The notes under the pieces: generated by a model
What the model saw: the letters and a program-made list of their open reading frames with translations, nothing else
Databases searched by the model: none
Told to the model about the DNA's origin: nothing
Part shown: positions 1 through 52,883 of the stretch, piece by piece
Numbering within the stretch: position 1 is the first letter of the stretch
Layout: every line of letters starts with the position of its first letter
Made by a program: the position numbers and the translations under genes
Assembly (NCBI RefSeq): GCF_003288905.1
Contig: NZ_NHYL01000001.1
Span: 372,001 to 436,000 of the forward strand
Direction: 5' to 3'
From: Helicobacter sp. 11-8110
GTDB taxonomy: Bacteria > Campylobacterota > Campylobacteria > Campylobacterales > Helicobacteraceae
DNA: 64,000 nt

Positions 1-801
1 TTTAATGAAGTCATTGGCTCTAAGCCTGAAATTTTAGACGCACTTTATCAAAATCTCCTTGCAAGGCTAGAAGAATCTAAAAAATTTGCTTCTCAAAAGT
101 TTTTTCCTGCTCTTGCCATTCATTCACCTTATTCTGTGCATCCTGCCTTGCTTAAACAAACCCTTAGCTTAGCAAAAACACAGAATCTGCCACTAAGCAT
201 TCATTTTTTGGAATCCAAAGAAGAGAGAGAATGGCTAGAATCTAAAACTGGATATTTTCAAAACTTTTTTAAAAAATTTTTCAATGCTCAAATGCAACCC
301 TTTTACACTCCTAGTGAATTTTTAGAATCTTTTAAAACACTAAAGCCTTATTTTGTGCATTGCTTAGAAGCCACCTATCAAGAATTAGAAGTCATTGCTA
401 AAATGCAAGGACATATCATTTCTTGTGTGAAATCAAATCGTCTTTTAAACAACAAAGTATTAGATTTAAATCTTTGTAAAAAACTTGGAATTAATCCTAT
501 TTTTGCTACCGACGGTAAAAGCTCCAATGATTCACTCTCACTCCTTGATGAGCTCCGCACTGCTTTATATATTTATGCTAATGAAGATTTAGAATCATTA
601 GCTAAAACTCTACTTTTAGGAGTTACTTATTATGCTCACAAAAACAATCCTTTAAAGATAAAAACAGGCTCACTCCAAAAGGGCTTTTTACCTGATTTTG
701 CTATTTTTAAACTAAATACTAAACGCCAAAGCGCACTTGATCTTTTACTTTATGTAAAAGAAGCTAAAGCCCTTTATATTGGCGGAAAACAAATCATTTA
801 A
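1..801 (+). CDS. mqnF: Aminofutalosine deaminase, amidohydrolase family (5' partial)
   Basis: The reading frame is open from base 1, so the N-terminus lies outside the window; the GTG at 136 is internal. The product resembles the ATZ/TRZ-type amidohydrolase that deaminates 6-amino-6-deoxyfutalosine in the futalosine route to menaquinone, known in Helicobacter and Campylobacter. Visible metal-site candidates are the His of HFLESKEE, the His of FVHCLEAT and the Asp of FATDGKSSND, in the order expected for the family's TIM barrel. The beginning, with the first HxH motif, is missing. A good Shine-Dalgarno separates it by 8 bp from the phosphohexomutase gene, so the two may be co-transcribed. A related deaminase with another substrate cannot be excluded. 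Confidence 0.72.
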   Translation, partial: FNEVIGSKPEILDALYQNLLARLEESKKFASQKFFPALAIHSPYSVHPALLKQTLSLAKTQNLPLSIHFLESKEEREWLESKTGYFQNFFKKFFNAQMQPFYTPSEFLESFKTLKPYFVHCLEATYQELEVIAKMQGHIISCVKSNRLLNNKVLDLNLCKKLGINPIFATDGKSSNDSLSLLDELRTALYIYANEDLESLAKTLLLGVTYYAHKNNPLKIKTGSLQKGFLPDFAIFKLNTKRQSALDLLLYVKEAKALYIGGKQII

Positions 802-809
802 GGAGAGAT

Positions 810-2174
810 ATGGAAAAATTAACCATTTTTAGAGAATATGATATTCGCGGAATTTATAATCAAGACTTAACTCAAGATAATGTTGTTAAAATTGGCTTTC
901 TTTTGGGGAAAGAGCTTAAAAAAAGAGGAGGAAAAACTCTAGGGGTGGGCTATGATGCAAGGGTGCATTCTCCCATTATTTTTAATTGGCTATGCAGCGG
1001 GATTGGTGCAAGTGGAATCACAACCTATAACCTAGGTCAGATTCCAACGCCAGTTGGCTATTTTGCACTTTATACTGATTTTGATGGATTAAGTCTTGAT
1101 GGTAGCATTATGATTACAGGTTCGCATAACCCCCCACAATATAATGGCTTTAAAATCACTCTCTTAAAACAGCCTTTTTTTGGAGAAGATATTTACAAAC
1201 TCGAACAAGACTTCTACTCCCTGCAAACCCCAAAAGTCAAAACAGAAACACCCCAAAAGCTCAATATACTTGAAAAATACATTGATTTTCTCTCTCAAGA
1301 GTTTCAACACCTAAAAGGCTTAAATATCCCCATTAACCTAGATTGCGGAAATGGAATTGCAGCTGTTGGGATTGCTGAGATTCTAAAAAGACTAGAACTC
1401 AACTTTGAAGGTTTATATCTTAATCCTGATGGAACTTTTCCAAACCATCACCCAGATCCAAGTGAAGAGAAAAATTTAGAGGACCTTAAAAAATTAGTAG
1501 CAAAAAAGGGTGGAATTGGTTTTGCCTTTGATGGAGATGGCGATAGATTGGCACTCATCAAGGGTGATAAAGTTTATAAGGGCGATGAATTAGCAATTAT
1601 TTTTGCACAAAAAATCCCAAATCCTATCATCATTGGAGAAGTTAAATGCTCTTTAAATATGTTTGAATCTATCAATAAAATCGGACAAGCAATTATGTAT
1701 AAAACAGGGCATAGTAACCTTAAAATCAAACTTAAAGAAACAAATGCTCACCTTGCCTTTGAAGTAAGCGGACATATTTTCTTTAATGATCGATACTTTG
1801 GCTTTGATGATGCAACCTATGCAGCTTTGCGTGTCTTAGAGCTTATTAAAGAAGATGGGTTAGAGTTTGATAAAATTCTTCAAACACTCCCAAAACTCTA
1901 TTCCACCGATGAAATAAAAATCCCAACCACCGAAGAAAGAAAATTTCAAATCATTCAAGAGCTCAAAGAAACACTCAAAAATCCTCCCAAGGATTTTCCA
2001 GAAATTATAGAAATTATTGATATTGATGGATTAAGAGTGATTTTTAAAGATGGTTGGGGGTTAATTAGAGCAAGTAATACAACACCCGTGCTAGTAACGC
2101 GCTTTGAAGCCAAAACCAATCTTGCAAAAGAAACTTACCAAAATGCCCTTTTGGGATTACTTAAAAAGGATTAA
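810..2174 (+). CDS. manB: Phosphomannomutase/phosphoglucomutase
   Basis: This is a 454-residue alpha-D-phosphohexomutase that interconverts hexose 6- and 1-phosphates for nucleotide sugars of lipooligosaccharide and other glycans. All four signature loops are present: the phosphoserine loop TGSHNP (Ser about 105), the metal loop DGDGDR (241-246), the sugar-binding loop beginning SGHIFF, and the C-terminal phosphate loop RASNTTP. Length and order fit the bacterial AlgC/ManB class. The ATG follows an AGGAGA ribosome-binding site. It sits between the menaquinone deaminase and pyrC with gaps of only a few bases. Mannose versus glucose preference cannot be read from the sequence. Confidence 0.88.
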   Translation: MEKLTIFREYDIRGIYNQDLTQDNVVKIGFLLGKELKKRGGKTLGVGYDARVHSPIIFNWLCSGIGASGITTYNLGQIPTPVGYFALYTDFDGLSLDGSIMITGSHNPPQYNGFKITLLKQPFFGEDIYKLEQDFYSLQTPKVKTETPQKLNILEKYIDFLSQEFQHLKGLNIPINLDCGNGIAAVGIAEILKRLELNFEGLYLNPDGTFPNHHPDPSEEKNLEDLKKLVAKKGGIGFAFDGDGDRLALIKGDKVYKGDELAIIFAQKIPNPIIIGEVKCSLNMFESINKIGQAIMYKTGHSNLKIKLKETNAHLAFEVSGHIFFNDRYFGFDDATYAALRVLELIKEDGLEFDKILQTLPKLYSTDEIKIPTTEERKFQIIQELKETLKNPPKDFPEIIEIIDIDGLRVIFKDGWGLIRASNTTPVLVTRFEAKTNLAKETYQNALLGLLKKD

Positions 2175-2176
2175 TA

Positions 2177-3181
2177 ATGGATACAATCACCTTGCAATCT
2201 CCCTTTGATATGCATTTGCATTTGCGAGATGGAGAAATGTTGCAAAATGTCATAGAATACACAGCTTGTTGCTTTAGCTCCGCACTTGTCATGCCAAATC
2301 TCAATCCGCCTATTTTAGAAGTTAAATCTGCTTTGGCATACAAACAAAGAATTTTACAAGCTTCACAATCAAAAGATTTTGAACCTTTAATGTCTCTATA
2401 TCTTAATGAAAACCTTAGCAAAGAAGAATTACAAATTGCCAAGGATAACGGAATCTTTATTCTCAAGCTCTACCCAAAGGGATCAACCACTGGAAGCGAA
2501 AATGGCGTAAGTGAGATTCTAAGCCCAAAAATTCTAGAAATCTTAGAAATAGCACAAGAAATGGGAATGATTCTAAGTATCCACGGAGAAAGCAATGGAT
2601 TTGTGCTAGAGCGAGAGGTGGAGTTTCATTCTATTTTTGAATACCTTGCAACCAATTTCCCAAAACTCAAAATTATTTTTGAGCACCTTAGCGATAGGCG
2701 CTCAATTGCCCTTGTAGAAAAATACGAAAATCTTTTTGCTACGCTTACTTTGCACCATATTTTACTTAACTTAGATGATGTAATTGGGGGTATGCTAAAT
2801 CCACATTATTTTTGCAAACCTATTTTAAAAACTAAAAAAGATCAAGAATCGCTACTTCAAGTTGCACTTAATGCGCATAAAAAATTCTCTTTTGGAAGCG
2901 ATTCAGCCCCCCACCTTAGAATCAATAAAGAAAGCAAAAAAGGGGCTGCAGGAATTTTTAGCGCTCCTATCTTGCTTCCTGCTCTTGCACAGACTTTTGA
3001 TACACACAATGCACTAGAAAACTTAGAATCTTTTGTTAGTCTTAATGCTAGTAAAATCTACAATCTAGTGCGCACTAACAAAAAAATCACCCTTGTTAAA
3101 AAACCTATGCAAGTTACCGAAGAGATAAATGGCATTGTGCCTATGTTTGCAGGAAATACTTTAGAATGGAGTTTAGCTTAA
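2177..3181 (+). CDS. pyrC: Dihydroorotase
   Basis: The 334-residue product catalyses ring closure of N-carbamoyl-aspartate to dihydroorotate in pyrimidine synthesis. The N-terminal DMHLHLRD (11-18) gives the two metal-binding His residues plus Arg. Lys97 in the segment ILKLYPKG is the expected carboxylated bridging lysine, and GSDSAPH near the C-terminus carries the catalytic Asp. The length matches the short class II PyrC. It begins 2 bp after manB and its stop directly abuts the coaD start, so it is part of a tight plus-strand gene train. Confidence 0.93.
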   Translation: MDTITLQSPFDMHLHLRDGEMLQNVIEYTACCFSSALVMPNLNPPILEVKSALAYKQRILQASQSKDFEPLMSLYLNENLSKEELQIAKDNGIFILKLYPKGSTTGSENGVSEILSPKILEILEIAQEMGMILSIHGESNGFVLEREVEFHSIFEYLATNFPKLKIIFEHLSDRRSIALVEKYENLFATLTLHHILLNLDDVIGGMLNPHYFCKPILKTKKDQESLLQVALNAHKKFSFGSDSAPHLRINKESKKGAAGIFSAPILLPALAQTFDTHNALENLESFVSLNASKIYNLVRTNKKITLVKKPMQVTEEINGIVPMFAGNTLEWSLA

Positions 3182-3682
3182 ATGGCAAAAATTGCAATCT
3201 ATCCTGGCACTTTTGATCCAATTACCAATGGGCATTTAGATGTTATTCAAAGGGCTTGTAAGCTCTTTGATGGCTTAACCATCGCGGTTGCAAAAAGCGA
3301 TAGTAAAAAGCCCCTTTTTACACAAAAAGAGCGCATAGAAATGGTTTTGTTTGCCATTAGTGAGCTAGAAGAAACTGCATGTGCACTTGATGTTAAGGGT
3401 TTTAACAATCTTGTTGCGGATTTTGCCAAAGAACAAGAATCAAATATCCTTATTAGAGGACTTAGAGCTGTTAGCGATTTTGAATACGAGTTGCAAATGG
3501 GCTATGCCAATGCCTCCCTTAATAAGAAATTAGAAACAATTTATCTCATGCCCTCCTTGCAAAACGCTTTTATTAGCTCAAGTGTTGTGCGTTCTATCCT
3601 GCTTCACAATGGAGATATTTCTCATCTCGTGCCAAAAAGTGTTAATAACTTTATAAGGAATCACCATGTATGTTGCCATTGA
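3182..3682 (+). CDS. coaD: Phosphopantetheine adenylyltransferase
   Basis: This 166-residue enzyme makes dephospho-CoA from 4'-phosphopantetheine and ATP, the fourth step of coenzyme A synthesis. The nucleotidyltransferase signature [10 protein letters not shown] (9-18) and the C-terminal ISSSVVR motif are intact, and the length is typical. The ATG follows the pyrC stop with no spacer, and the 3' end overlaps tmk by 17 bases, which suggests translational coupling. Confidence 0.95.
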
Positions 3683-4250
3683 AGGAATTGATACAAGTGG
3701 AAAAAGCACTCAGATTCAAGCACTTAAGTTTTTTTTAAAAAAAGCTATTTTTACTTTTGAGCCTGGCGCGACCAATCTTGGAGCAAAGCTAAGGGAAATT
3801 TTATTACAAGATTCGATACAATTAGATAGTAGAGCTGAAATGCTACTTTTTCTTGCTGATAGAGCGCAACACGCAAATGAGATTTTAAAATCTCACGCCA
3901 ATAATCTTATTATTTCTGATAGGAGTTTAATTTCTGGAATGGCATATGCAAGAGACTTTAACTTTGATACACTTAAAGCCTTTAATCTCTTTGCCACTCA
4001 AGGAATCTTGCCTAATAAAGTTATTATTCTGGAATTACAAAAGGATGATTTGCAAAAACGCTTAAATTCCAAAGGAAATGATAAAATCGAGCAAAGGGGC
4101 TTAGAATACCTTCTATCTTTGCAAGAGAGGATAAAATCCATCACTCAAAAACTATCTTTAGAACACCACATTATCGATGCTAATTTACCTAAAGATTCCA
4201 TTACAACAGAAATAATTGATTTCATAGGCAAAGAAAATTGCGTTGTTTAA
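3666..4250 (+). CDS. tmk: Thymidylate kinase
   Basis: The 194-residue product phosphorylates dTMP to dTDP. The P-loop is GIDTSGKS (residues 7-14). The DRS-type motif [13 protein letters not shown] follows, and a lid region lies around [13 protein letters not shown]. The start is inside the last codons of coaD, and the gene ends inside the start of the next frame, so the three products are probably made from one mRNA. Confidence 0.93.
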
Positions 4251-4810
4251 TTTGTGGAAATTTTACCTTTAAAACCCTCTGCAATCCTTGTTTTCAAACA
4301 ATCACAATTCAACCTAGAGTAAGAGACTTAGGAAATTTTAAAGTTTATAGCTTTTATGATTACCAAGAAATCCAATTTCTCTTGCATGCTAAATACCAAA
4401 TTATCGGAAGCAAAATTTATCACTTATTATCCAAAAAGGCTTGTTTATTTTTAAAACAAACACTAAAATCTCCACTAAAAGCTTATGGAATAGGAATTGA
4501 TGATAAAATTAGCAAACAAGGCTATGCACACAATGCCATCTTTCTTAAACATTTCAAAAAACTAGGTATTATCCCGCTGTATCACACGCTATTAGCTCAA
4601 AATTCTGTTTCTTATGCAGGAAAAGATTTGAAATTTCGCCAAAATAATCCACGCAATTTTTATTTAATGCGCAACATTACACACAAAAAAATTATTTTAT
4701 TTGATGATCTCATCACCACAGGATTAACACTCAAAGAAGCCCAAAAGCTTCTAGCAGAGAAAGGTGCAGAAGTGCTTATGGCTTTTGTTTTAAGCGATGC
4801 AAAATATTAG
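4238..4810 (+). CDS. ComF family phosphoribosyltransferase-like protein
   Basis: The 190-residue protein begins with a four-cysteine zinc-ribbon (Cys3, Cys6, Cys15, Cys18) and ends with a PRPP-binding loop, ILFDDLITTG, the plan of ComF/GntX proteins. ComF is needed for DNA uptake in naturally competent bacteria, with a proposed role in handling internalised single strands; that function is inferred here. TTG at 4238 is the only possible start, because an in-frame TGA lies at 4217-4219 and no ATG or GTG precedes the first cysteine. The gene therefore overlaps the end of tmk by 13 bases. Its stop overlaps that of the convergent SIMPL gene. Confidence 0.8.
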   Translation: MRCLICGNFTFKTLCNPCFQTITIQPRVRDLGNFKVYSFYDYQEIQFLLHAKYQIIGSKIYHLLSKKACLFLKQTLKSPLKAYGIGIDDKISKQGYAHNAIFLKHFKKLGIIPLYHTLLAQNSVSYAGKDLKFRQNNPRNFYLMRNITHKKIILFDDLITTGLTLKEAQKLLAEKGAEVLMAFVLSDAKY

Positions 4811-5511
4811 TCTTTTAAATAATATTCAATTGTAGAAACTACACGCACTTTTTTAATATGAGATGTATTTCTATCGCGGTTTAATACACTAAATTGCCCT
4901 TGCGAAGCCTTTTTGATTTTACCTAATGTGCTTTGAGAATCTTGTGCAAACTTCTGTGCCACTTCTCTTGCATTAAAAGTTGCTTCTTCAACCATTTCTG
5001 GTTTCACTTCATTAAGCTTGGTATAAAGATATTCGATTTCATAATCTTCCACTCTAACCACTGTGCCCTCTTTGCCAAGTTCTGTAAGTTTTTCTAAAGC
5101 TTTTCTACCTAAATCAATCTTATTAGTATAAACCAAAACCCTACCCTCACCTGAATAGCGATAAACTATGCTTTGTGATTCACCATAAGCACTCCCTACT
5201 TTATCGGTGATTCTTGGTGCTTCTATTCTAATTTCCTGTGCTTGAATGCCTATTTTTTGTAAAAACTCTATGATTCTTTTAGAATCATTTTCTAATTCTT
5301 GATACAAAACATTCAAATCACTACTTGCACGCGTAAAATTGATAGGAAAAATCATCACATCCGCTAAAACCTCTCTTTCGCTCAAACCCTTAACAACAAC
5401 ACTCCTCTCTTTTGATTTAATATCTACAATAGCCTTACTAACCCCAAAGCTAACAATAGCGCTACAAATAACAAAAAATATTCCCAAAATAATTGCACTT
5501 GTTTTACTCAT
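4807..5511 (-). CDS. SIMPL (DUF541) domain envelope protein
   Basis: The 234-residue protein has an N-terminal transmembrane or signal-anchor segment (about residues 8-28) followed by a periplasmic DUF541/SIMPL domain, recognisable from the start of the domain (VVVKGLSEREV) and the length. The biochemical role of the family is not settled; some members are envelope or stress-related proteins. It is convergent with the ComF gene, and the tRNA-Arg gene lies upstream on the same strand. Confidence 0.75.
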   Translation of the reverse strand: MSKTSAIILGIFFVICSAIVSFGVSKAIVDIKSKERSVVVKGLSEREVLADVMIFPINFTRASSDLNVLYQELENDSKRIIEFLQKIGIQAQEIRIEAPRITDKVGSAYGESQSIVYRYSGEGRVLVYTNKIDLGRKALEKLTELGKEGTVVRVEDYEIEYLYTKLNEVKPEMVEEATFNAREVAQKFAQDSQSTLGKIKKASQGQFSVLNRDRNTSHIKKVRVVSTIEYYLKD

Positions 5512-5545
5512 AGATAATCCTTAAATTTTTCTAATCTAACTGAAG

Positions 5546-5622
5546 TGGTGTCCACGATGCGATTCGAACGCATGGCCTCACGATTAGGAATCGTGTGCTC
5601 TATCCAGCTGAGCTACGAGGAC
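5546..5622 (-). tRNA. tRNA-Arg (anticodon CCT)
   Basis: A 77-nt cloverleaf can be folded by eye on the minus strand. The anticodon stem CACGA/TCGTG closes the loop TTCCTAA, giving anticodon CCT, which reads AGG. The T-arm ATGCG-TTCGAAT-CGCAT is perfect and CCA is encoded. The acceptor stem pairs except for a U5-U68 mismatch. It lies directly behind the HU terminator. Confidence 0.95.
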
Positions 5623-5630
5623 TTAAAAAT

Positions 5631-5651
5631 AAAAAACCCCAAAAAAAGGGG
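5631..5651 (-). terminator. Rho-independent terminator of the HU gene
   Basis: Read on the minus strand, CCCC and GGGG pair around seven T residues and are followed by a run of six T. It lies 17 bp past the HU stop codon and 8 bp before the tRNA-Arg gene. Confidence 0.75.
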
Positions 5652-5667
5652 AGAAGCAAAGCAGAAG

Positions 5668-5958
5668 TTATTTTTTTGCAGCTGCAACAGCGTCTTTGAA
5701 ACCTTTTCCAGCTTTAAATTTTGGAACAAATTTATCTTTTGTTTTATATTTCTTAGTTGTTCCAGGAACGGTTCCCTCTTTACCTTTTTGAAGCACAGTT
5801 TCAAATTTACCAAAACCTACAAGCTCAACACTTCCATCTTTTTTTGAGAGTGCTTTTTCAATTGCAGCAGTAAAAGCACTGATTGCTTTTTCAGCATCTT
5901 TTTTTGTTTCATACTCACCAACTTCTTTTACCAAGTCAACAAATTCAGATTTGTTCAT
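5668..5958 (-). CDS. hup: DNA-binding protein HU
   Basis: This is a 96-residue histone-like nucleoid protein. The helical dimerisation half is followed by the conserved GFGKFE turn and a Lys-rich DNA-binding beta-arm, ending in an Ala/Lys-rich tail. Length and composition match the single HU of Helicobacter. The ATG follows a GGAGG ribosome-binding site. A short frame on the opposite strand covers most of it but shows no protein-like features. Confidence 0.93.
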   Translation of the reverse strand: MNKSEFVDLVKEVGEYETKKDAEKAISAFTAAIEKALSKKDGSVELVGFGKFETVLQKGKEGTVPGTTKKYKTKDKFVPKFKAGKGFKDAVAAAKK

Positions 5959-5992
5959 TTAGAACCTCCATATTTTTATTTTAAACGCCATT

Positions 5993-5998
5993 ATTGTA
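5993..5998 (-). promoter_or_regulatory. -10 element of the HU promoter
   Basis: On the minus strand the sequence TATGCTACAAT lies about 35 bp before the HU start, an extended -10 of the kind seen in Campylobacterota, which rarely have a clear -35. The rest of the 235-bp divergent region up to gapA is AT-rich; a TATAAA at about 6116-6121 is a candidate gapA -10. Confidence 0.5.
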
Positions 5999-6193
5999 GC
6001 ATAAATTATTAGCTTTGCAAGGCTTTTAGCAGAAAAATGAACTTTTTTGCGCGTATTTTACAGCTATTTTTAATCATTCTTATCCAATAAAGCAAACTTC
6101 TTATATTAAAATCATTATAAAATGGAGTTTATTAAGCTTTTTTTGAATAGAATCTAGCACAAAAAATTAACAATAATTTAAATAGGAGAGATT

Positions 6194-7189
6194 ATGTCAA
6201 TTAAAGTAGCAGTGAATGGGACAGGGAGAATTGGATTGTGTGTTTGCAAGATTCTTGGACAACGCGATGATTTGGAGCTAGTAGCCATTAACACCACTAT
6301 GTCCATTGATACTTTAATCCACCTTTTAAAATACGATTCTGTCCATCAAAGTAGCGAAATTACTAAGATTAGCGAAAATCAAATTTGTATTGGCAAACAA
6401 AAAAATATCCAAATCATTAGCACAAGAAATATTCAAGAAACACATTTTGGTCAATACGGCGCTGAAATTGTTATAGAATGCACAGGGGCTTTTAATGATG
6501 TTTCTAAAGCTTCACTACATCTCTATGATGGTATTAAGCGCGTTGTTATTTCAGCACCAGCTACTGATACTCCAACTTTTGTTTATGGGGTTAATCATCT
6601 AAGTTATGCTAATGAGCCTGTTATTTCTAATGCTAGTTGCACCACAAATGCCCTAGCACCACTCACCAAAGTCTTACACGAAAATTTCAAGATTCTAAGT
6701 GGTTTAATGACAACTATCCATAGCTACACCAACGATCAAAACTTACTTGATTCAAAGCACAAAGATTTGCGTCGTGCAAGAGCCGCTGCGCTTAATATGA
6801 TTCCAACCTCCACTGGGGCTGCAAAGGCTATTGGACTTGTCATGCCAGAGCTTAAAGGCAAACTCAATGGCTTTGCAGTTCGCGTCCCAACCCCTGATGT
6901 AAGCTTGGTTGATTTAACTTGTGTGATAGAAAAATCTGCCACTAAAGAAATCATTAATGAAACTTTCAAAAAAGCCTCTCAAGAATCAATGAAAGATTTG
7001 ATTTTTGTTGATGAAGAAAAACTTGTTTCGGGTGATTTTATCGGATCTCCTTATAGCGCGATTTTTATTCCTGATTGCACCACTATTGTCAATGAAAATC
7101 AAGTAAAAATTGTTGCTTGGTATGACAATGAATGGGGTTATTCCACGCGCTTAGTAGATATGGTGCATTTTGTTGGGCAATCTCTATGA
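6194..7189 (+). CDS. gapA: Glyceraldehyde-3-phosphate dehydrogenase
   Basis: The 331-residue enzyme oxidises glyceraldehyde 3-phosphate with NAD(P) and phosphate in glycolysis or gluconeogenesis. The Rossmann motif NGTGRIG is at residues 8-14. The catalytic cysteine is Cys149 in SNASCTTN. The C-terminal WYDNEWGYS motif is complete. The start has an AGGAGA Shine-Dalgarno at 6184-6189. The stop overlaps the pgi start in an ATGA, so the two sugar-phosphate enzymes are translationally coupled. Confidence 0.93.
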   Translation: MSIKVAVNGTGRIGLCVCKILGQRDDLELVAINTTMSIDTLIHLLKYDSVHQSSEITKISENQICIGKQKNIQIISTRNIQETHFGQYGAEIVIECTGAFNDVSKASLHLYDGIKRVVISAPATDTPTFVYGVNHLSYANEPVISNASCTTNALAPLTKVLHENFKILSGLMTTIHSYTNDQNLLDSKHKDLRRARAAALNMIPTSTGAAKAIGLVMPELKGKLNGFAVRVPTPDVSLVDLTCVIEKSATKEIINETFKKASQESMKDLIFVDEEKLVSGDFIGSPYSAIFIPDCTTIVNENQVKIVAWYDNEWGYSTRLVDMVHFVGQSL

Positions 7190-8454
7190 TTCATTTAGAA
7201 AATACCTACCAAAGCTCCCCAAACTATGATTCTAGCTTTTTATCTAAAGAATCCTTGCAATCTTGCTTTGAAAAGATTCAAGCAGAAAAAGAGAATGGGG
7301 TAAGCGGATATTACCACTTGCCCTTCCAAGAAAATTCAGATATTTTTACCTATCTTAGAGAATATCACTGCTTTTTGGATAATCTTAAAAATCTCGTGAT
7401 TATAGGTATTGGCGGTAGTTCTCTTGGCACAAAAGCCATTGACGCTCTACTTTCACACCAACACAATCGCAGAAGGCTTAAATTACGCTTTTTAGAGCAC
7501 ACTGATCCTATTGTAATTAACAAAGAGCTTCAACGCATCAAATGGGAAGAAACATTATTTATTGTAATTTCAAAGTCTGGATTAACTATTGAAACCACTT
7601 CCCTTTTTAAATATGTTTTAAAACATTTCAATCTCTTAGATTCTAAGAGAAAAAATCACCTCTTAACAATCAGTGATGAAGATTCTCCACTTTTTCATTG
7701 GAGCAAGGAACAAAAAATACAAAACTTCACCATAAAGCCAAATATTGGTGGTCGTTTCTCTGTATTAAGCACCACAGGATTGCTCCCACTTGGTATCTTA
7801 GGCTACAATCTCCAAAGCCTTCTTAAAGGTGCACAAAATATGAGTCAATATTTCTTTAAAAACCCCACTAATGAGATTCTAAAAAAAGCAGCATTTCTAG
7901 CTCATTGCGAAACAAACTACCCCATTAATGTGCTTTTTTCTTACAGCAGTGTTTTTAGACATTTTAATGCTTGGTATGTGCAGCTTTGGGGAGAATCTTT
8001 AGGAAAGCTAGATTACACAGGGCAAAAAAGGGGTTTAACTCCCATTGCCCTTATTGGCAGCATTGATCAACATTCCTTTTTGCAGCTTATTATGCAAGGT
8101 CCGCAAAACAAAAGTGTTACTTTTTTGAGTGTTGAAAAATTTTCTCAAAAGCCACTTTATATCCCTAATATTAAACTAAAGGGTTTAGAATCAACAGATT
8201 TTGTCAATGGCACCTCCTTTAATAAACTCTTGCAATTACAATGCATTTCCACCAAAGAAAGCATTATTGCAGAAAATGTCCCCACTGATTCTATTACTCT
8301 AGATATTTTATGTGAAGAAAGCGTGGGTGAGCTTATTTTTTATTATGAATTACTTACTTCTTGCGTGGGAGCATTGCTACAAATTGATACATATAATCAA
8401 CCAGGTGTTGAATTTGGAAAAAAAATATTGAGAGAAAAATTTACACATATTTAA
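7186..8454 (+). CDS. pgi: Glucose-6-phosphate isomerase (short form)
   Basis: The product, 422 residues from the ATG at 7186, interconverts glucose 6-phosphate and fructose 6-phosphate. Visible features are the sugar-phosphate-binding GIGGSSLGTKA, the SKSGLTIET loop and the GGRFSVLSTTGLLPL segment of the PGI fold. It is shorter than the roughly 545-residue H. pylori Pgi and near the roughly 400-residue C. jejuni type. An earlier in-frame ATG at 7132 lies inside the conserved C-terminus of gapA. The 7186 start is preferred because of the ATGA overlap. Confidence 0.88.
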   Translation: MIHLENTYQSSPNYDSSFLSKESLQSCFEKIQAEKENGVSGYYHLPFQENSDIFTYLREYHCFLDNLKNLVIIGIGGSSLGTKAIDALLSHQHNRRRLKLRFLEHTDPIVINKELQRIKWEETLFIVISKSGLTIETTSLFKYVLKHFNLLDSKRKNHLLTISDEDSPLFHWSKEQKIQNFTIKPNIGGRFSVLSTTGLLPLGILGYNLQSLLKGAQNMSQYFFKNPTNEILKKAAFLAHCETNYPINVLFSYSSVFRHFNAWYVQLWGESLGKLDYTGQKRGLTPIALIGSIDQHSFLQLIMQGPQNKSVTFLSVEKFSQKPLYIPNIKLKGLESTDFVNGTSFNKLLQLQCISTKESIIAENVPTDSITLDILCEESVGELIFYYELLTSCVGALLQIDTYNQPGVEFGKKILREKFTHI

Positions 8455-45201: not shown

Positions 45202-45303
45202 AGCAAAATACAAATATTCATCTATTTACACCAAAAGAATCTCTTTTCTAAGCAACAAAAAGTTAGAACTAACACTTTATGCGGTGAATGCAAAAGGTGC
45301 GAA

Positions 45304-46044
45304 ATGATTACAAAACAAAATATGGAATCACTTTTAGATTCTCTAGGATTTATACAAAATGACAAGGTTTATACAAAAACCATAGGCGATATAACCATAG
45401 GGGTAGATTGTGCCAAACAAGAAATCATCTACCCCACGCAAATCACAATCCACGACAAAACCACCTCAAACTTTTCTCACCCAGAAAATTTCGTCGTTTT
45501 TGAATGTGTGCATAGGCTATTACAAAAGGGTTATAAGCCAGAACACTTAGAGCTAGAGCCAAGGTGGAATCTAGGGCGAGAGGCAAAAGGTGGGAAAGCA
45601 GATATTTTGGTGCGAGATCATCAAGGCAGTCCTTATTTACTCATCGAGTGCAAAACCACAGATTCTAAAAATAGCGAGTTTGCCAAAGAATGGGCAAAAA
45701 TGCTAGAAAATGGCGGACAACTTTTCTCTTATTTTCAACAAGAAAGAGGCGTGAAATATCTATGTCTCTACACAAGCGACTTTATAGATGATACTCTCAA
45801 ATATCAAAACTACATCATACAAGCCTTTGATAACCAAGAATACCTAAACGAAAAAGAATTAGAAAAATCCTATACAAAAGCAACCAACAATCTTGAACTT
45901 TTTTCTGTATGGAAAGAAAGCTATGAATTTCACCACGAAAAGCAAGGTATTTTTGAAAACAATATCAAAGTTTATATGCAAAATGACATTAAAGTTTCTC
46001 TTAGTTTCTCTGGCAAACAAATCTCTACAAAAGGACAGCTATGA
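45304..46044 (+). CDS. HsdR-N-like nuclease domain, N-terminal part of a split R-M enzyme
   Basis: The 246-residue protein matches the N-terminus of large N6-adenine methylase/restriction fusion proteins of Campylobacterota. NFVVFECVHRLLQKGYKPEHL is followed by a PD-(D/E)XK site: Asp in GKADILV and ECK in LLIECKT. Homology to that family ends near GIFENNIKVY (about 45985), after which some 15-19 residues look unrelated. The matching continuation (TFENLKELKEEGKYHEFAKIL) is found 3.6 kb downstream at about 49,630. So this appears to be the severed 5' part of that gene. It overlaps the DUF2779 start as ATGA and may now be a free-standing nuclease domain. Confidence 0.7.
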   Translation: MITKQNMESLLDSLGFIQNDKVYTKTIGDITIGVDCAKQEIIYPTQITIHDKTTSNFSHPENFVVFECVHRLLQKGYKPEHLELEPRWNLGREAKGGKADILVRDHQGSPYLLIECKTTDSKNSEFAKEWAKMLENGGQLFSYFQQERGVKYLCLYTSDFIDDTLKYQNYIIQAFDNQEYLNEKELEKSYTKATNNLELFSVWKESYEFHHEKQGIFENNIKVYMQNDIKVSLSFSGKQISTKGQL

Positions 46045-47522
46045 ATCTCTCAAAATCTCGCTTTATCAAAGGTATGCAGTGTCAAAAGCTACTATGGCTT
46101 TTAACTCATAAAAAAGAAGCCCTAAGTGAGCCAGATATGCAGCAAACAGAGCGATTTAGCGTAGGTGAAGATGTAGGGATTTTAGCGTGTGAGTTATTCC
46201 CTAAGGGAGCTAGAATCCACTTTTGTGATGGTATAAGTTATAACGCTAAACGCACAAAGGAATTGCTAGATTCTGGCACTAACGTGATATATGAAGCGAC
46301 TTTTATATATGAAGGCATTGTTGTAATGGTAGATATTTTACAAAACACGCCACAAGGGCTTATCATCAATGAAGTGAAAAGCTCCACAAGCCTAAAGGAA
46401 GTATATATCTATGATTTAAGCGTGCAGCACTATGTCATCACGCATTGTGGATATAGTATAAAGGAAGCGAATCTTATCCATTTAAACACAGACTATAAAA
46501 GGGGTAAATCACTTGATTTAACTAGGCTTTTTGTAAGTGTGCCTTGCTTAGAATCTGTGCAAGAATTTACACCAAAGATTCCAACAATTTTAAGTGATTT
46601 TAGCGAGATTTTAGAGACAAAGAATGAGCCAAATATTGATATAGGATTACATTGTGATAATCCTTACTCTTGCGAGGCAAAGTCATATTGCTGGGAAGCC
46701 CAAAGGAATATAACAGGAGAAGATTGCATATTTAATCTTGCTTGGCTTAATGGCGATAAAAAGCTAGGGCTATATAGACAAGGGATAGCACGATTTAGTG
46801 ATATAAAAGATATAGATAGCTTAAACTACAAGCAACAACTACAAATAGAATGCTTTAAGAATAAATCCGTGCATATACAAAAGGATAAAATCAAGGAGTT
46901 TTTAGGGAGTTTATCCTACCCCATTTATCACTTAGATTTTGAGACATTTCAACCTGCTGTGCCTAGATTTGTAGGCACTTGTGCGTATGAGCAAATCCCT
47001 TTTCAATTCTCACTCCATATCCAGCATAAAGATGGCAAGCTAGAGCATAAAGAGTTTTTAGCCAAAAGTGGCATTGACCCTAGAGTTGAACTTATTCAAA
47101 CCCTGCTAGATTCTATCCCGCCAAATGCCTTTATCCTAGCTTATAATGCGAGTTTTGAAAAAGGTGTCATTACAAGACTTGCTGCAAGTTTTCCACAATA
47201 TGAAAAAGAGCTTTTGCATATTGCTTCACAGATTGAAGACTTAATGTATCCCTTTGCCGCTAGGCATTATTATCATTATAAGCAAAATGGTAGCCACTCT
47301 ATCAAAGTCGTGCTACCAGCCCTTGTGCCACAAATGGAATCCGCTTATAAAGAGCTAAGTCTCGTGCATAATGGTGGCGAGGCGATGGAGTGCTTTGGGG
47401 CATTAGAATCTATGCCAAAAGAAAAGCAGATAGAATATCGCAAAGCCCTTTTAGCATATTGCAAACTTGATACACTTGCTATGGTGGAGATTATAAAGGC
47501 GTTGGAAAAGCTAGTGGGCTAG
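46041..47522 (+). CDS. DUF2779 protein: Cas4-like nuclease fused to a DEDD-exonuclease-like domain
   Basis: The N-terminal half of this 493-residue protein looks like a Cas4/RecB-type nuclease. It has Cys14 (GMQCQKLLW), Asp98 (MVDIL), Glu111-x-Lys113 (NEVKSST), and a cluster of Cys205, Cys211 and Cys217 that with Cys14 could hold an Fe-S cluster. The C-terminal half is DUF2779 with DFET (Asp299, Glu301), YNASFEK (368-374) and YCKLDT (473-478), the pattern of a DEDD 3'-5' exonuclease. No cas genes are near. It lies inside the split R-M gene. The family has no established function that I know; a defence role is inferred from the company it keeps. Confidence 0.65.
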   Translation: MNLSKSRFIKGMQCQKLLWLLTHKKEALSEPDMQQTERFSVGEDVGILACELFPKGARIHFCDGISYNAKRTKELLDSGTNVIYEATFIYEGIVVMVDILQNTPQGLIINEVKSSTSLKEVYIYDLSVQHYVITHCGYSIKEANLIHLNTDYKRGKSLDLTRLFVSVPCLESVQEFTPKIPTILSDFSEILETKNEPNIDIGLHCDNPYSCEAKSYCWEAQRNITGEDCIFNLAWLNGDKKLGLYRQGIARFSDIKDIDSLNYKQQLQIECFKNKSVHIQKDKIKEFLGSLSYPIYHLDFETFQPAVPRFVGTCAYEQIPFQFSLHIQHKDGKLEHKEFLAKSGIDPRVELIQTLLDSIPPNAFILAYNASFEKGVITRLAASFPQYEKELLHIASQIEDLMYPFAARHYYHYKQNGSHSIKVVLPALVPQMESAYKELSLVHNGGEAMECFGALESMPKEKQIEYRKALLAYCKLDTLAMVEIIKALEKLVG

Positions 47523-47615
47523 GCGATATTTAGTCTTGTATTTTTGATTGTAATATACATTTATATTTGTAGCGATTAATCTTTACTACATTAAATTTAA
47601 AGAAAGGGTAAAAGC

Positions 47616-47723
47616 GTGGAATATAAAGACTTTTTTGAAAAAGTAAGCGGCTTTTTAAAACAGGCAGAGATTCACAAAAGGCGTGGGAATAATGACTTTA
47701 ATCCCTTGCTTTATTTTTTTTGA
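47616..47723 (+). pseudogene. 5' remnant of a PD-(D/E)XK nuclease family gene
   Basis: A GTG start with an AAAGG site opens a frame of 35 codons ending at TGA 47721. The peptide begins VEYKDFFEKVSGFLKQ and ends with RRGNNDFNPLLYFF. It resembles the start of the PD-(D/E)XK (PDDEXK_4-like) nuclease proteins common in defence regions, which run to several hundred residues. Here the gene breaks off after FNPLL, immediately before the promoter of the next gene. Only the first residues remain, so the assignment is tentative. Confidence 0.45.
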
Positions 47724-47724
47724 T

Positions 47725-47730
47725 TATAAT
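47725..47730 (+). promoter_or_regulatory. -10 element for the GmrSD-like gene
   Basis: A perfect TATAAT follows a run of eight T, 33 bp before the start codon, with AAGGAG at 47752-47757. The gene therefore has its own promoter within the inserted block. The remaining DNA from 47523 to 47615 shows no other feature. Confidence 0.55.
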
Positions 47731-47762
47731 ACGCATACACATATTACATTTAAGGAGCGATA

Positions 47763-49424
47763 ATGGCAAATGATTTCAAAGTAGAAGGTTTCAATTTAGA
47801 GGACTTATTGGCAAATAAAAAGATGTCATATCAAATCCCATCGTATCAACGACCTTATGCGTGGGATAAAGATCAAATTAGCGATTTAATCGAGGATTTG
47901 ACAGAATCTTATTGCAATGGCAAAGAAGGACAATATTTTTGTGGTTCATTAGTGATTGCAAAAGGTGCAAATAGTGAGCGATATGATATTATAGATGGAC
48001 AACAAAGACTTACAACTTTTACCATTTTAGCCTGTGTGATTAGGGATTTTCACATAGACAACTTGGGAGCTGAAAACAAAGATCGCATACAAGATAGCAT
48101 ATATGATAAATATGATAAAGACAAACACAAGCTAAAATTTTTAACAGATGAAAAGTATCAAATTGCCTTTGAAAATAGTGTATTAAGAGAAAATGTTTTA
48201 CAAGAAAAGCTAAAAGATATTAAAAAAGCACAAGATATAAAGGATAATAGATATTTGCAAAATGCGTATTATCTAAAAGAAAGGCTTAAAGGAGCAATTG
48301 ACGAAAATAGTATTGATATAGACGATTTTGTGTCGTGGCTTTATACAAAGGTGATTTTAACAAGAATTGAATGCCCTGATGAAGAAAGTGCGATTAGAAT
48401 CTTTAATGTTTTAAATGATAGGGGTATGCCACTTAGCCCTGTGGATATTTTAAAATCTTCTCTTATGCAGTCATTAGACAAAGAGCGTAGAGAAGCTTTT
48501 AAAACAACTTGGCAAGAGATTATGTCAAATTTGGAAACAATGGGATTTTCTATGTATGACACATTAAATGCTTATCTTTACTATGCGATAGCAGACAATC
48601 CTAAAGGAAGGCTTGATAAAGAGCTTAAAACTTATTTTGAAAAAACTAAGCAAGATTCAACAGCCATTATTGAAGAGATAAAAACATTTGCAAACCACTA
48701 CATTGAGATAATTAACACTAAGGATAAACATATCTATTGCTTAAGGTATCTGCCTAATCAAATCTATTGGCGAAGCATTTTGTGTGCTGCAAAAATGGTG
48801 GATTATAAAGATTACAATAAGCTAAAAGAATTGCTTATGGCTTACTATTACCAAAACCTTATAGGTATGGCAACAGCTAATAGATTTAAGCAAGTTTCAT
48901 TTAATATCCTTAAAGCAGTCAAGGATATTAAACCAATAGATGAGATAAAAAACATTATGCGTGAAAATCTCAAAAAATATGGCACAACAAAAGATTATAA
49001 AGAATGGCTAGATGATGCAGATGTTTATGATTTGAAGTGGGTAAAACCAACATTACTTTTGCTTGAATACTTTTCTAAAGATGATGAAATTGGGTTTATA
49101 GAAATGGACAATAAGCTTCATACAGAGCATATCCTACCAAGAACTCCCAACGACGATTGGAAAAAAATCTTTAGCAATGAAGAAAGGGATAGCTGGACAA
49201 ATGCCATAGCTAATCTAACATTGTTAAGATTTAAAAAGAATACTCAAGCTCAAAATAAAAGCTATGAAGAAAAACGCGAAGTCTATCTCAACAAGGATAA
49301 TGTCAGCACAAGCTTTACTATCACACAAGATATTTTTAAGCATAAGCAATGGAATGTAGAAGCGTTAAAAATGCGAGATAATGAGGTTAAAACTAAGATA
49401 GAAAAAATTATTGATATTTTTTAA
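47763..49424 (+). CDS. GmrSD-type fused DUF262-DUF1524 restriction enzyme
   Basis: The 553-residue protein has an N-terminal DUF262 domain (ParB-like, NTP-using) with IPSYQRPYAW and the DGQQR motif (78-82). The C-terminal DUF1524 HNH-type nuclease domain has HTEHILPR (about 450-457) and an Asn-containing NAIANLTLL segment. This is the layout of fused GmrSD, a type IV restriction system that cuts phage DNA with modified (glucosylated) cytosine; related enzymes are BrxU and SspE. Its own promoter and strong terminator mark it as a self-contained cassette. Target modification is not predictable. Confidence 0.82.
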   Translation: MANDFKVEGFNLEDLLANKKMSYQIPSYQRPYAWDKDQISDLIEDLTESYCNGKEGQYFCGSLVIAKGANSERYDIIDGQQRLTTFTILACVIRDFHIDNLGAENKDRIQDSIYDKYDKDKHKLKFLTDEKYQIAFENSVLRENVLQEKLKDIKKAQDIKDNRYLQNAYYLKERLKGAIDENSIDIDDFVSWLYTKVILTRIECPDEESAIRIFNVLNDRGMPLSPVDILKSSLMQSLDKERREAFKTTWQEIMSNLETMGFSMYDTLNAYLYYAIADNPKGRLDKELKTYFEKTKQDSTAIIEEIKTFANHYIEIINTKDKHIYCLRYLPNQIYWRSILCAAKMVDYKDYNKLKELLMAYYYQNLIGMATANRFKQVSFNILKAVKDIKPIDEIKNIMRENLKKYGTTKDYKEWLDDADVYDLKWVKPTLLLLEYFSKDDEIGFIEMDNKLHTEHILPRTPNDDWKKIFSNEERDSWTNAIANLTLLRFKKNTQAQNKSYEEKREVYLNKDNVSTSFTITQDIFKHKQWNVEALKMRDNEVKTKIEKIIDIF

Positions 49425-49454
49425 AATCTCATTGGAATCCTAACATATATAAAC

Positions 49455-49488
49455 AATGCGATTAAGGTAGCTTTAGCTTAATCGCATT
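49455..49488 (+). terminator. Strong rho-independent terminator after the GmrSD-like gene
   Basis: AATGCGATTAAG (49455-49466) and CTTAATCGCATT (49477-49488) form a perfect 12-bp stem with a 10-nt loop, followed by further T. It lies 30 bp past the stop. Beyond it, 49491-49591 holds no gene I can see; the R-M frame opens at 49592. Confidence 0.8.
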
Positions 49489-49591
49489 TTGCAACCTATA
49501 TCTAGTCTTTTTGCTTTACATTGTTTAAAATATGTAATTTTTCCATCACATTTCAATCCTTTGTCATAACGCTGTCAAGAGATCATGTTAA

Positions 49592-51943
49592 TATTACAAC
49601 GCTTATAAGATTCTACAAACAACTCCAACCTTTGAAAACCTCAAAGAGCTCAAAGAAGAGGGCAAATACCACGAATTTGCCAAAATCTTACGCAAACACA
49701 ATATTTCAGGCAAAGAAAATGCCTTTGATAAACTAGTCAATATTTTTCTTTGCAAAATTTATGATGAGAGTTTTTATAAAGACAATCTAAAATTTGGTTA
49801 TCGTGGCGTAATGGCAGATACTTATGCGAGTATGCAAGATAGGTTAATGTGGCTTTACAAAGAAGCAATGAGAGAATTTTTGGGCGAAAAAATCACTTTT
49901 GTCTCTAATGAAGACATAGAAAAAGACTTCAAAAAACTCAAAGTCAAAGCCCTCAAAGCAACAATGCAAAACTACATCAAAGAACTAAAATTCTACTCTA
50001 ACAACGACTTTGCATTCCTTGAAGTGCATAACAAAGAATTATTTTTAAAAAATGCCCTTGTTTTAAAAGAAATCGTTGAGCTTTTTGCACCCTACAAACT
50101 CACACAAAACTCTACCAATCAATTTTTAGGCAATCTCTTTGAGCTGTTTTTACAAAAAGGTATGAAGCAAGATGAGGGGCAGTTTTTCACACCTATGCAA
50201 ATTTGCGAATTTATCGTGTATTCTCTCCCCTTAGATTCTATGCTAAGCACAAAACCTCTAAAAGTCATTGACTATGCGTGTGGTGCAGGACATTTTCTAA
50301 ACACTTATGCCAATGAGATTAAACGCTACATCAATACACAAGATTTAAAAGAGCATTACAAAAATATCTATGGCATTGAAAAAGAATATCGCTTAAGCAA
50401 AGTCGCAAAAGTCTCAAGTGCTATGTATGGACAAAATGAAATCAATATCCTCTACGCCGATGCCCTCTCAAGCTTTGAGTTAGCCAACACAAGAGTTTTG
50501 GAAGGTCAAAAGCCAAAACCACAGATTCAATCACACAGCTTTGATTTACTCATCGCCAATCCACCCTATTCTGTCAAAGGCTTCCTAGAAACGCTAAGCC
50601 CAAAATCTAGAAAAACCTATGAACTTTTTAATACCGACATCAATATAGAATCTAACAATTCCATTGAATGCTTTTTTATCGAGAGAGCCAAACAGATTCT
50701 AAAAGACAATGCAAAAGCCGCTATCATTTTGCCAAGCTCCATTTTAAACAAAGATTCTATCTACAAATCCACACGAGAAATACTTTTCCAAAACTTTGAT
50801 TTTATCGCTATTGCAGAGCTTGGAAGCCAAACCTTTGGAGCCACAGGCACAAACACTATTATTTTATTTTTACGCAAAAAAGAAACTTTTAGACAAGAAG
50901 AAAGGGTTGTCTCCCAAGACTACAGCCTTATAAAAGAACGCTTAGAATCAGAAAATCTACAAGACAATGATGATTTTTATCAAAACTATCTAAGTGCATA
51001 TTGTGATTGTAGAGAGTTTAACAAAGAGCATTTTTTAAGCTTTTTGGAGGGAAATCTTAATGATGAGATTCTAAAGCTTGCTACTTTCAAAGAATATCTC
51101 AATGCGTTTAAGCAAACAAGTGAATACAAAAAACTTACCGAATCTAAAGCCTATAGAAATTCTAAAGATGAAGACAAAATCTCCCTAGAACGCACACATT
51201 TTATAGCCTACGCCCAAAAGATTGAAAAAGACAAATTGCTTTATTTCTCTCTAAGTCTCAATCAAGAAGTGCTTATCATCAAAGCCCCAAGCGATATAAA
51301 AGAACAAAAGCGATTCTTAGGCTATGAATGGAGCAATCGCAAAGGCGATGAGGGCTTAAAAGAATTATCAAACCCTTATGAAAGCCCACTTTTTGAACGC
51401 GACAATCCACACAATGATTTTAAACTAAACACCTTGATACGCAAATCTTTTGACAATACGCTTGATTCTATCCCACAAGAATTGCAAACCTACGCCACAA
51501 AGACAAGACTAATTGATATGATAGATTTTAGCAAAGTGGAGTTTAATAAAGCGATAAGTCTTAATCCGCATTCTAACGATTCTCATAGTGTGCAATCCAA
51601 CCCTTTTGCAAATTCTAAATATGAGTTGGTGAAACTTGGGGAGGTTATTTTAGAGAATCCAAAATCTAAAATCCAAGTAAGAGAGGCAAAAGAAAATACA
51701 ACGGGAGCATATCCGTTTTATACGAGTGGGGTAAATATTTATCGCTATGATGAAGCTCTAACAAGTGGAGAAAACATTTATCTCTCAACAGGCGGCAATG
51801 CACTTGTGCAATTTTACAGAGGAGAGAGTGCATACTCTACTGATACTTACGCGATTAAAGCAGATTCTAAAAAAATTGCTTACGAAATTTCTTTTTTATG
51901 TTTTACAAATGCAACAAGGCTATATCAATCAATTTCTTTTTAA
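49592..51943 (+). pseudogene. Downstream part of the split R-M enzyme: N6-adenine methylase and first target-recognition domain
   Basis: The frame is open from 49592 to 51943, but there is no ATG, GTG or TTG before 49811, although family-like sequence (EGKYHEFAKIL, ENAFDKLVNIFLCKIYDE) already runs upstream. The real N-terminus is the nuclease domain at 45304-46044. The methylase part has FFTPMQICEF, motif I DYACGAGHFL (about 153 from the ATG) and motif IV NPPYS (about 246), so the catalytic core is intact. A specificity half-domain starts near KYELVKLGEV. The frame stops at 51943 after a shift around 51869-51890. From ATG 49811 a 710-residue protein without the nuclease end could still be made. 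Confidence 0.72.
51869..51875 (+). repeat. A7 homopolymer at the frameshift in the specificity region
   Basis: Seven A residues fall in the Ser-Lys-Lys codons where the methylase frame and the downstream specificity frame should join. With six A the protein would read DSKKLLTKFLFYVLQ and continue to 52883. With seven it ends at 51943. Slippage here would switch the C-terminus on or off. Confidence 0.6.
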
Positions 51944-52883
51944 GGGTTCAGGCTTAAAGCATTTACAAAAACCAGAATTTAAGAATCTCAAAATCCCCTT
52001 GCCACCTTTAGAAATCCAAAAACAAATCGTAAGCGAATGTGAAAGCCTAGAATCACGATGCAACACAATAGAGCAGAGTATCAGGGCATACCAAGAACTC
52101 ATTAAAGCAATTCTTTGGCATTGTGGGATTACTACAGAATCTACAAAAGATTTTGATTCTATCCTAATGTCTTTAGCAGAGTTAGAATCCAAACTTGACT
52201 TTGAGCTTTTAGGAAAGACAAAACAAGATTCTAAAGCATTTTTGCAGAATCTAACAAATATCTTAAACACTCTCCCAACTCCACCAAGCAATGGATGGGA
52301 AAGAATTTGGTTAAAAGATACGAGATTTATTGATTTAAACCCAAAAAAAGAAATCAATAATTATGATGAAAATATGCTTGTGTCTTTTGTGGAAATGGCA
52401 AGCGTTTCAGACAAAGGATACATTGAAAGAAAGATAAATAAACCTCTAAAAGAAGTTAAAAAGGGTTATACCTATTTTATAGAAAATGATGTCTTGATTG
52501 CAAAAATAACCCCTTGTATGGAAAATGGTAAATGTGCAATTGCAACAAATTTAACAAACAATATAGGTTTTGGTAGCACAGAGTTTCACATTTTTAGAGC
52601 CAAATCTGGCTTGAAACCCAACTTTTTATTTTACAATTTAAATCAAGAAGCCATAAGAGAGCAAGCTGCGATTGCAATGACTGGAGCAAGTGGGCACAAA
52701 AGAGTTCCCATAAGCTTTTATGAAAATCTTACAATCCCCCTCCCGCCACTAGAAGCCCAAGAAAAAATCACACAAAGCATTGAGACAATCCAATCTCAAA
52801 TTTCTTTTTTAGATTCTGCACTTCCGCTTTTACAATCCCAAAAACAAGAGGTATTGAAAAATACCTTTTTTAAGCATTTCTAG
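51876..52883 (+). pseudogene. Specificity (HsdS-like) C-terminus of the R-M enzyme, out of frame
   Basis: The frame encodes the end of the first target-recognition domain (GYINQFLFKGSGLKHL, then IPLPPLEIQKQIV). A helical spacer and a complete second recognition domain (NGWERIWLKD to ITIPLPPLEAQEKI type ending, residues LTIPLPPLEAQEKIT) follow. It is the C-terminal third of the enzyme, displaced by one frame from the methylase part. A start at 51765 could make a separate 372-residue protein, but its first 35 residues are out-of-frame sequence, so that start is unlikely. Two recognition domains suggest a bipartite DNA target. Confidence 0.7.

Follow-up and report, generated by a model that had tools for sequence, protein, structure and literature searches.

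In the 64,000-nt stretch of Helicobacter sp. 11-8110 DNA analysed here (the window), a once whole Type IIG-like restriction-modification (R-M) gene has probably been inactivated by inserted phage-defence cassettes, which would have entered in circularly permuted order through one crossover; this is the best explanation we find for the locus (Table 1). A dead enzyme alone would be ordinary, since disruption of R-M genes by other DNA is frequent in Helicobacter. What is unusual is the combination of exact reciprocal joins, an empty allele surviving at 98% identity and a right-end promoter that reveals its gene of origin. ORFs of the window were taken from a six-frame reading. The genus comparison covered 19 genomes and the family survey 121 Helicobacteraceae genomes, including the window's genome (G000), a same-species genome (G004), a sister species (G003) and H. 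equorum isolate 361872 (G084).

Table 1 Features of the interrupted R-M locus (positions in the window).
Feature	Position	Strand	Remarks
R-M N-terminal part, up to left join	45304–45968	+	221 codons; HSDR_N_2 / PD-(D/E)XK nuclease region
DUF2779 5′ leader, now 25-aa chimeric tail of 246-aa ORF	45969–46040	+	
DUF2779 protein, 493 aa, intact	46041–47522	+	profile match 9.2e-44; Cas4-like N half, DUF2779 C half
PDDEXK_4 (PDC-S26-like) nuclease gene stub	47616–47706	+	
Poly-T (T8) and TATAAT-like promoter upstream of GmrSD	47714–47731	+	
GmrSD-family Type IV restriction gene, 553 aa, intact	47763–49424	+	PADLOC HEC-06/Orf5
18-bp imperfect palindrome TTGTCATAACGCTGTCAA, putative WYL operator/promoter element	49561–49578	+	
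DUF2779-type downstream half of promoter GAGATCATGTTAATATTACAA, insert right end	49579–49599	+	
Rest of R-M gene: linker, N6-adenine methylase, start of recognition domain 1	49600–51943	+	
Recognition (Methylase_S) domains continued, other frame	51765–52883	+	372-aa ORF
A7 run, frameshift site	51869–51875	+	methylase frame terminates at 51943

The R-M gene and its uninterrupted allele

The 246-aa ORF (45304–46044) corresponds to positions 1–232 of PDLC03624 (E 2.4e-106), the PADLOC Type IIG model of 1,271 positions, and includes an N-terminal nuclease domain (HSDR_N_2, 4.5e-06) with its nuclease residues (GGKADILVRD...LLIECK) and start codon kept. The preliminary description, which took this protein for the nuclease N-terminus of an R-M fusion, was right except for the last 25 residues; these are the DUF2779 leader translated in frame, with the stop falling in an ATGA overlap with the DUF2779 start. 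The expected continuation lies in a frame open from 49592 (PDLC03624 221–985, E 0), with its first ATG at 49811 (710 aa) ahead of the methylase domain, as described earlier. An N6_Mtase profile match (2.5e-28) and an NPPY motif, in the form ANPPYSV, are found in this second half, and RM.BsaXI (8w0p) is the nearest solved structure to it. The C-terminal part had been read as continuous from 49620 to 52883, but a frameshift at the A7 run breaks the S-like region: the 710-aa frame stops inside recognition domain 1, and PDLC03624 positions 982–1267 are matched by the separate 372-aa ORF. At the cut-offs of NCBIfam the main proteins receive no specific name. From these matches, 45304–45968 and 49600–52883 are parts of one fused Type IIG-like R-M gene that once encoded a single chain, with nuclease, N6-adenine methylase and two recognition domains.

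Such single chains are encoded by the H. equorum and G003 homologues. H. equorum carries, besides a split copy, a whole R-M gene (contig C11) with 97.7% nucleotide identity to the window over 45243–45976 and 98.0% over 49590–51639. Its protein runs continuously across the junction (GIFENNINAYKILQTTPTFENLKEL), in a frame that stays open from the ATG over 1,294 aa until the contig breaks off, the final residues lying beyond it. G003 has an intact fused gene (1,325 aa) at the same chromosomal site (flanks 90–92% identical), fused genes of 1,517 and 1,179 aa are present in G016 and G001, and in G006 the junction is uninterrupted, with frameshifts elsewhere in the gene. The proposal that defence-type genes had been inserted into an R-M fusion, and that relatives might keep an uninterrupted allele, is thus borne out by the ~98% identical H. 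equorum gene and the same-site gene of G003. Split R-M pieces were found in four genomes (G000, G004, G084 and G087). Across the 121 genomes, N-part matches lie mostly within one long open frame; neither a stand-alone N-terminal family nor the same gene order without fused relatives was seen.

Two further variations were observed in this family. In G018 (L044, near 6198–6240), an R-M relative is frameshifted between N-part residues 168 and 174, its second frame being 904 aa. Recognition domain 1 (window 51647–51989, compared with L040, L043 and L199) is unlike in the window, G004 and H. equorum, with matching flanks, and that of the window resembles its G016 counterpart, pointing to domain swapping within the S-like region.

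Profiles confirm the middle genes as first named (DUF2779, nuclease remnant, GmrSD-like). Copies of the DUF2779 protein are 98% (G087) and 91% (G058) identical at the amino acid level. In G087 the same position holds an unbroken PDDEXK_4 gene (423 aa), of which the remnant keeps the 5′ part. The GmrSD gene is one intact ORF (GmrSD_N 1.1e-40, GmrSD_C 4.6e-18) with the DGQQR motif (IIDGQQRLTT) and an HNH-type domain (TEHILP). The window's genome has a second DUF2779 gene, 46% identical (G000:C20:2508-4010; L116). None of the papers found that mention DUF2779 concerns defence, going by titles and abstracts.

Joins, permutation and route of insertion

Comparison with H. equorum places the joins exactly at 45968/45969 (left) and 49599/49600 (right), bounding an insert of 3,631 bp (45969–49599). 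The second half had been thought to start near 49,630, with a few residues missing between the R-M parts, but the halves meet base to base: the joined flanks equal the H. equorum sequence, with zero bases lost, gained or duplicated. H. equorum reads ATTTTTGAAAACAATATCAA/CGCTTATAAGATTCTACAAA at the junction and the native DUF2779 upstream region of G058 reads AGATTATGTTAATATTACAA/AGTTTATATGCGAAATAGCA; the window has GAAAACAATATCAA/AGTTTATA as left recombinant (break after 45968) and TTAATATTACAA/CGCTTATAAGAT as right recombinant (break after 49599). The only bases common to both partners right at the join point are CAA, in the contexts AATATCAA/CGC in the R-M gene and AATATTACAA/AGT in the promoter, and the two joins look like the reciprocal products of one crossover at this CAA. 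In separate assemblies, the right join of G004 and the left join of G087 and G084 are identical to those of the window, so that every split copy has one or the other join in common. Transposon insertion was rejected, as the joins are reciprocal and the target-site duplication that would go with terminal inverted repeats is missing.

The downstream half of the right-end promoter was searched for in the 121 genomes with up to three mismatches. Its DUF2779-type form occurs in six places, two of them upstream of DUF2779 (G058 and G059; 20/21 and 19/21 bases as in the window) and the other four at the right ends of the insert (G000, G004, G084 and G087); 41 other element copies match the window's downstream half at no more than 14 of 21 bases. 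The left end of the insert is the DUF2779 body without its promoter, starting with the leader that in G058 stands 3′ of that promoter, and the right end is this same promoter variant. Gene order is PDDEXK gene, promoter, DUF2779 in G058, and DUF2779, PDDEXK gene, promoter in the G087 insert. Since the right-end variant elsewhere precedes DUF2779, and does not belong to some gene that comes after GmrSD in an array, the insert is a cyclic permutation of promoter-DUF2779-..., with its opening point where the promoter ends on the downstream side.

Given this permutation, both joins are accounted for if a circle and the R-M gene crossed over once. The simplest route would be a single reciprocal exchange of this kind, by which the R-M gene took up a circular or tandem cassette, probably through short-homology recombination following DNA uptake. 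The R-M promoter would now drive DUF2779, and GmrSD would rely on a poly-T promoter of its own, while the array promoter would fire into the dead methylase half. Helicobacter can take up linear DNA, and a linear array fragment with two tandem DUF2779 units, entering by two short-homology crossovers in natural transformation with no circle, would leave identical end sequence. This alternative also suits the lack of an accompanying recombinase gene in the arrays examined, near which no dedicated recombinase was found; no circular molecule was seen. It is possible but the less likely course, as it needs tandem units and two coincident, independent crossovers, at the same R-M base pair and at the equivalent point of two promoter copies, and no tandem DUF2779 pair was found in the arrays examined.

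Other vehicles were considered and rejected. An integron lacks its cognate integrase near the arrays (the nearest tyrosine recombinase is ~39 kb from the G058 array, and one in G000 is far from the window), the whole locus is unmatched in 50,697 phage records, and plasmids gave only DUF2779 homologues of <60% identity.

Whatever brought in the cassettes, 438 bp of the R-M gene are absent at the right join in G087 and G084, and the history therefore comprised more than one step. Between DUF2779 (or what is left of it) and the right-end promoter lies a slot that is occupied by GmrSD in both the window and G004, by the whole PDDEXK_4 gene in G087 and by a DUF262 gene in G084, and DUF2779 is largely or wholly gone in G084 and G004; the contents of the slot have thus been swapped since insertion within common borders. 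At a contig end in G012, a DUF2779 end, a PDDEXK stub and a DUF262 gene follow one another. PDDEXK stubs ending at NDFNPLL recur upstream of GmrSD/DUF262 (window 47616–47706; L109, L112, L115 and L118). The parent PDDEXK genes are not the same, the window having an EYKDFF-type stub and G058 and G061 an MTDEN-type one, which suggests that the stubs mark a recurrent recombination point. On their 3′ side a poly-T run of 7–14 is followed by GATTATAATA, an arrangement found upstream of GmrSD, DUF262 and PDDEXK_4 (window 47714–47731; L109, L111, L112, L115, L155 and L159). The tract is T8 in the window, T9 in G004 and T7 to T14 ahead of related cassettes, making it a candidate phase-variable promoter; T-tracts altering expression are reported for the promoter of H. 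pylori sabA (PMC2715451).

Fate of the enzyme

Lesions differ between copies of the gene. Beyond the insert and the A7 frameshift of the window, the N-part of G004 stops at window position 45732, where it is joined to 47562, and its methylase carries a different frameshift; the split copy of G084 and that of G087 lack the R-M start as well as the 438 bp after the join. These several independent lesions argue that the gene is a pseudogene, and the enzyme is very probably dead. Values of dN/dS are 0.28 (N part) and 0.15 (C part) between the window and H. equorum, and 0.44 against G004, for part of the methylase only. As these are still low, a dead gene would have to have lost its function recently; the values are consistent with recent loss but short of proof, because the divergence predates the break and the counts are small, so that dN/dS fails to separate a live from a dead R-M gene.

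The preliminary description had left the choice between a dead enzyme and one working as two chains, and the second lesion and the different lesions of G004 favour the former. In the two-chain case, the R-M promoter would drive a 246-aa nuclease and the inserted promoter (49560–49599) a methylase-specificity protein. The kept nuclease residues and start codon, the promoter element just upstream of the second half, the ATG ahead of the methylase and the low dN/dS would all fit, but the second half is itself broken at 51943 in recognition domain 1, G004 of the same species has lost the N-part end and has its own methylase frameshift, and the split copies of G084 and G087 are missing both the beginning of the R-M gene and, in its second half, 438 bp, leaving this reading improbable.

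Less probable still is that the split order, present in four genomes, is original and the fused protein a later fusion: removal of the insert restores the codons exactly, the N-part in the family lies mostly in one long frame, relatives of the insert are located elsewhere, in arrays, and all split copies have the left or right join in common. An assembly chimera, conceivable for a 22-contig draft, is practically dismissed by the recurrence of the joins in the separate assemblies G004, G084 and G087 and by the position of the window in the interior of a 587-kb contig.

Source arrays, the promoter element and known systems

The source arrays, like the frameshift and the promoter element of the right join, were beyond the preliminary description. 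Close homologues of the insert genes are present in the defence arrays of other Helicobacter, and the block appears to derive from gene arrays of these related species. TTGTCATAACGCTGTCAA is present once in the window, its only copy in the genome at up to one mismatch; at the same threshold there are 39 occurrences in 14 of the 121 genomes and none of the reversed control. Copies lie on one strand, seven within 26 kb in G058 and eight within 18 kb in G071. Exact 19-bp matches among GTDB genomes comprise ten Helicobacter stretches (bilis, canis, equorum, labetoulli, rappini and sp. 10-6591) and two unrelated MAGs, the latter about the number expected by chance. Across 46 sites (up to three mismatches), TTTGWCATAACGCTGTCAA is conserved, with a TATAAC-like -10 ~10 bases further, and in many cases 40–60 bp separate the site from the start of the first downstream ORF with a length of 80 aa or more.

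Same-strand defence arrays with the element are found in H. bilis, H. canis, H. labetoulli and others (L150 and L151, G071; L152–L154, G058; L155, G072; L162, G067, H. canis; L163, G076), and many of their defence-type genes have their own TTGTCATAACGCTGTCAA copy. Genes following the element encode GmrSD/DUF262, DUF2779, MoxR-type AAA with a VWA partner, IetA-like AAA, PDDEXK_4 and SIR2. DUF285 repeats are present on several of the array proteins (L150 12628–13206, 13434–15551 and 17060–18328), in one case at the end of a MoxR-type ATPase. A solitary element copy in G069 (L161, 4410) stands beside a yebC-like gene, where G067 has an array, and resembles an emptied array.

Most of the arrays examined are flanked at their edge by a divergent HTH-WYL-WCX gene. 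In seven of eight loci this gene starts 49–83 bp from an element copy, and one such WYL-side copy is a perfect palindrome (TTGACATAATTATGTCAA). By genome, eight have both a close WYL homologue and the element, six the element only, one the WYL gene only and 106 neither (Fisher p 2.9e-08, without phylogenetic correction). WYL control of the TTGTCATAACGCTGTCAA palindrome is plausible from this placement. In the source arrays the regulator is beside the genes, but locally it is not: a close homologue is absent from the window's genome, G004, G084 and G087, and the best WYL protein of the window's genome is only 26% identical. No literature was found on WYL regulators in Helicobacter phage defence, and a single array in which the operator recurs many times, in front of separate defence genes, appears to be new in the open-licence literature.

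The exact joins suggest a concrete mechanism for the shuffling of defence genes between species, and the arrays, with many different defence genes behind one common promoter/operator next to a WYL regulator, a testable design for immunity under common control. Tentatively, Helicobacter arrays might consist of promoter-bounded cassettes with a common WYL-controlled operator, moving between genera as integrase-free circles that recombine at the promoter downstream edge, the split R-M gene being a captured integration.

Parallels exist with several known systems. BrxR-type WYL repressors of defence islands are known, with two boxes reported in one island (PMC9122601, PMC9122589). The Helicobacter arrays likewise place an HTH-WYL-WCX protein and an inverted-repeat element beside defence genes, but have up to eight same-strand element copies, most just ahead of a defence gene, and their regulation is putative. 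RptR-regulated islands hold a working defence module, under a dedicated repressor, within a working Type I R-M system (PMC12255303); the window also has a defence module embedded in an R-M locus, but here the insert lies inside the coding sequence and destroys the R-M gene. Like integron gene cassettes, the array units seem exchangeable and have a common boundary element, and permuted insertion suggests a circle; unlike them, those examined have no integron integrase nearby, and the element is a short palindromic promoter and not attC. The GmrSD gene of the window is full-length (GmrSD_N and GmrSD_C) as in GmrSD/BrxU Type IV enzymes, but forms a cassette with its own poly-T promoter inside another defence gene. 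Intact relatives of the Type IIG fused R-M gene (PDLC03624) similarly combine nuclease, N6-adenine methylase and S-like domains, in one frame, whereas the chain in the window is interrupted by 3,631 bp and a frameshift.
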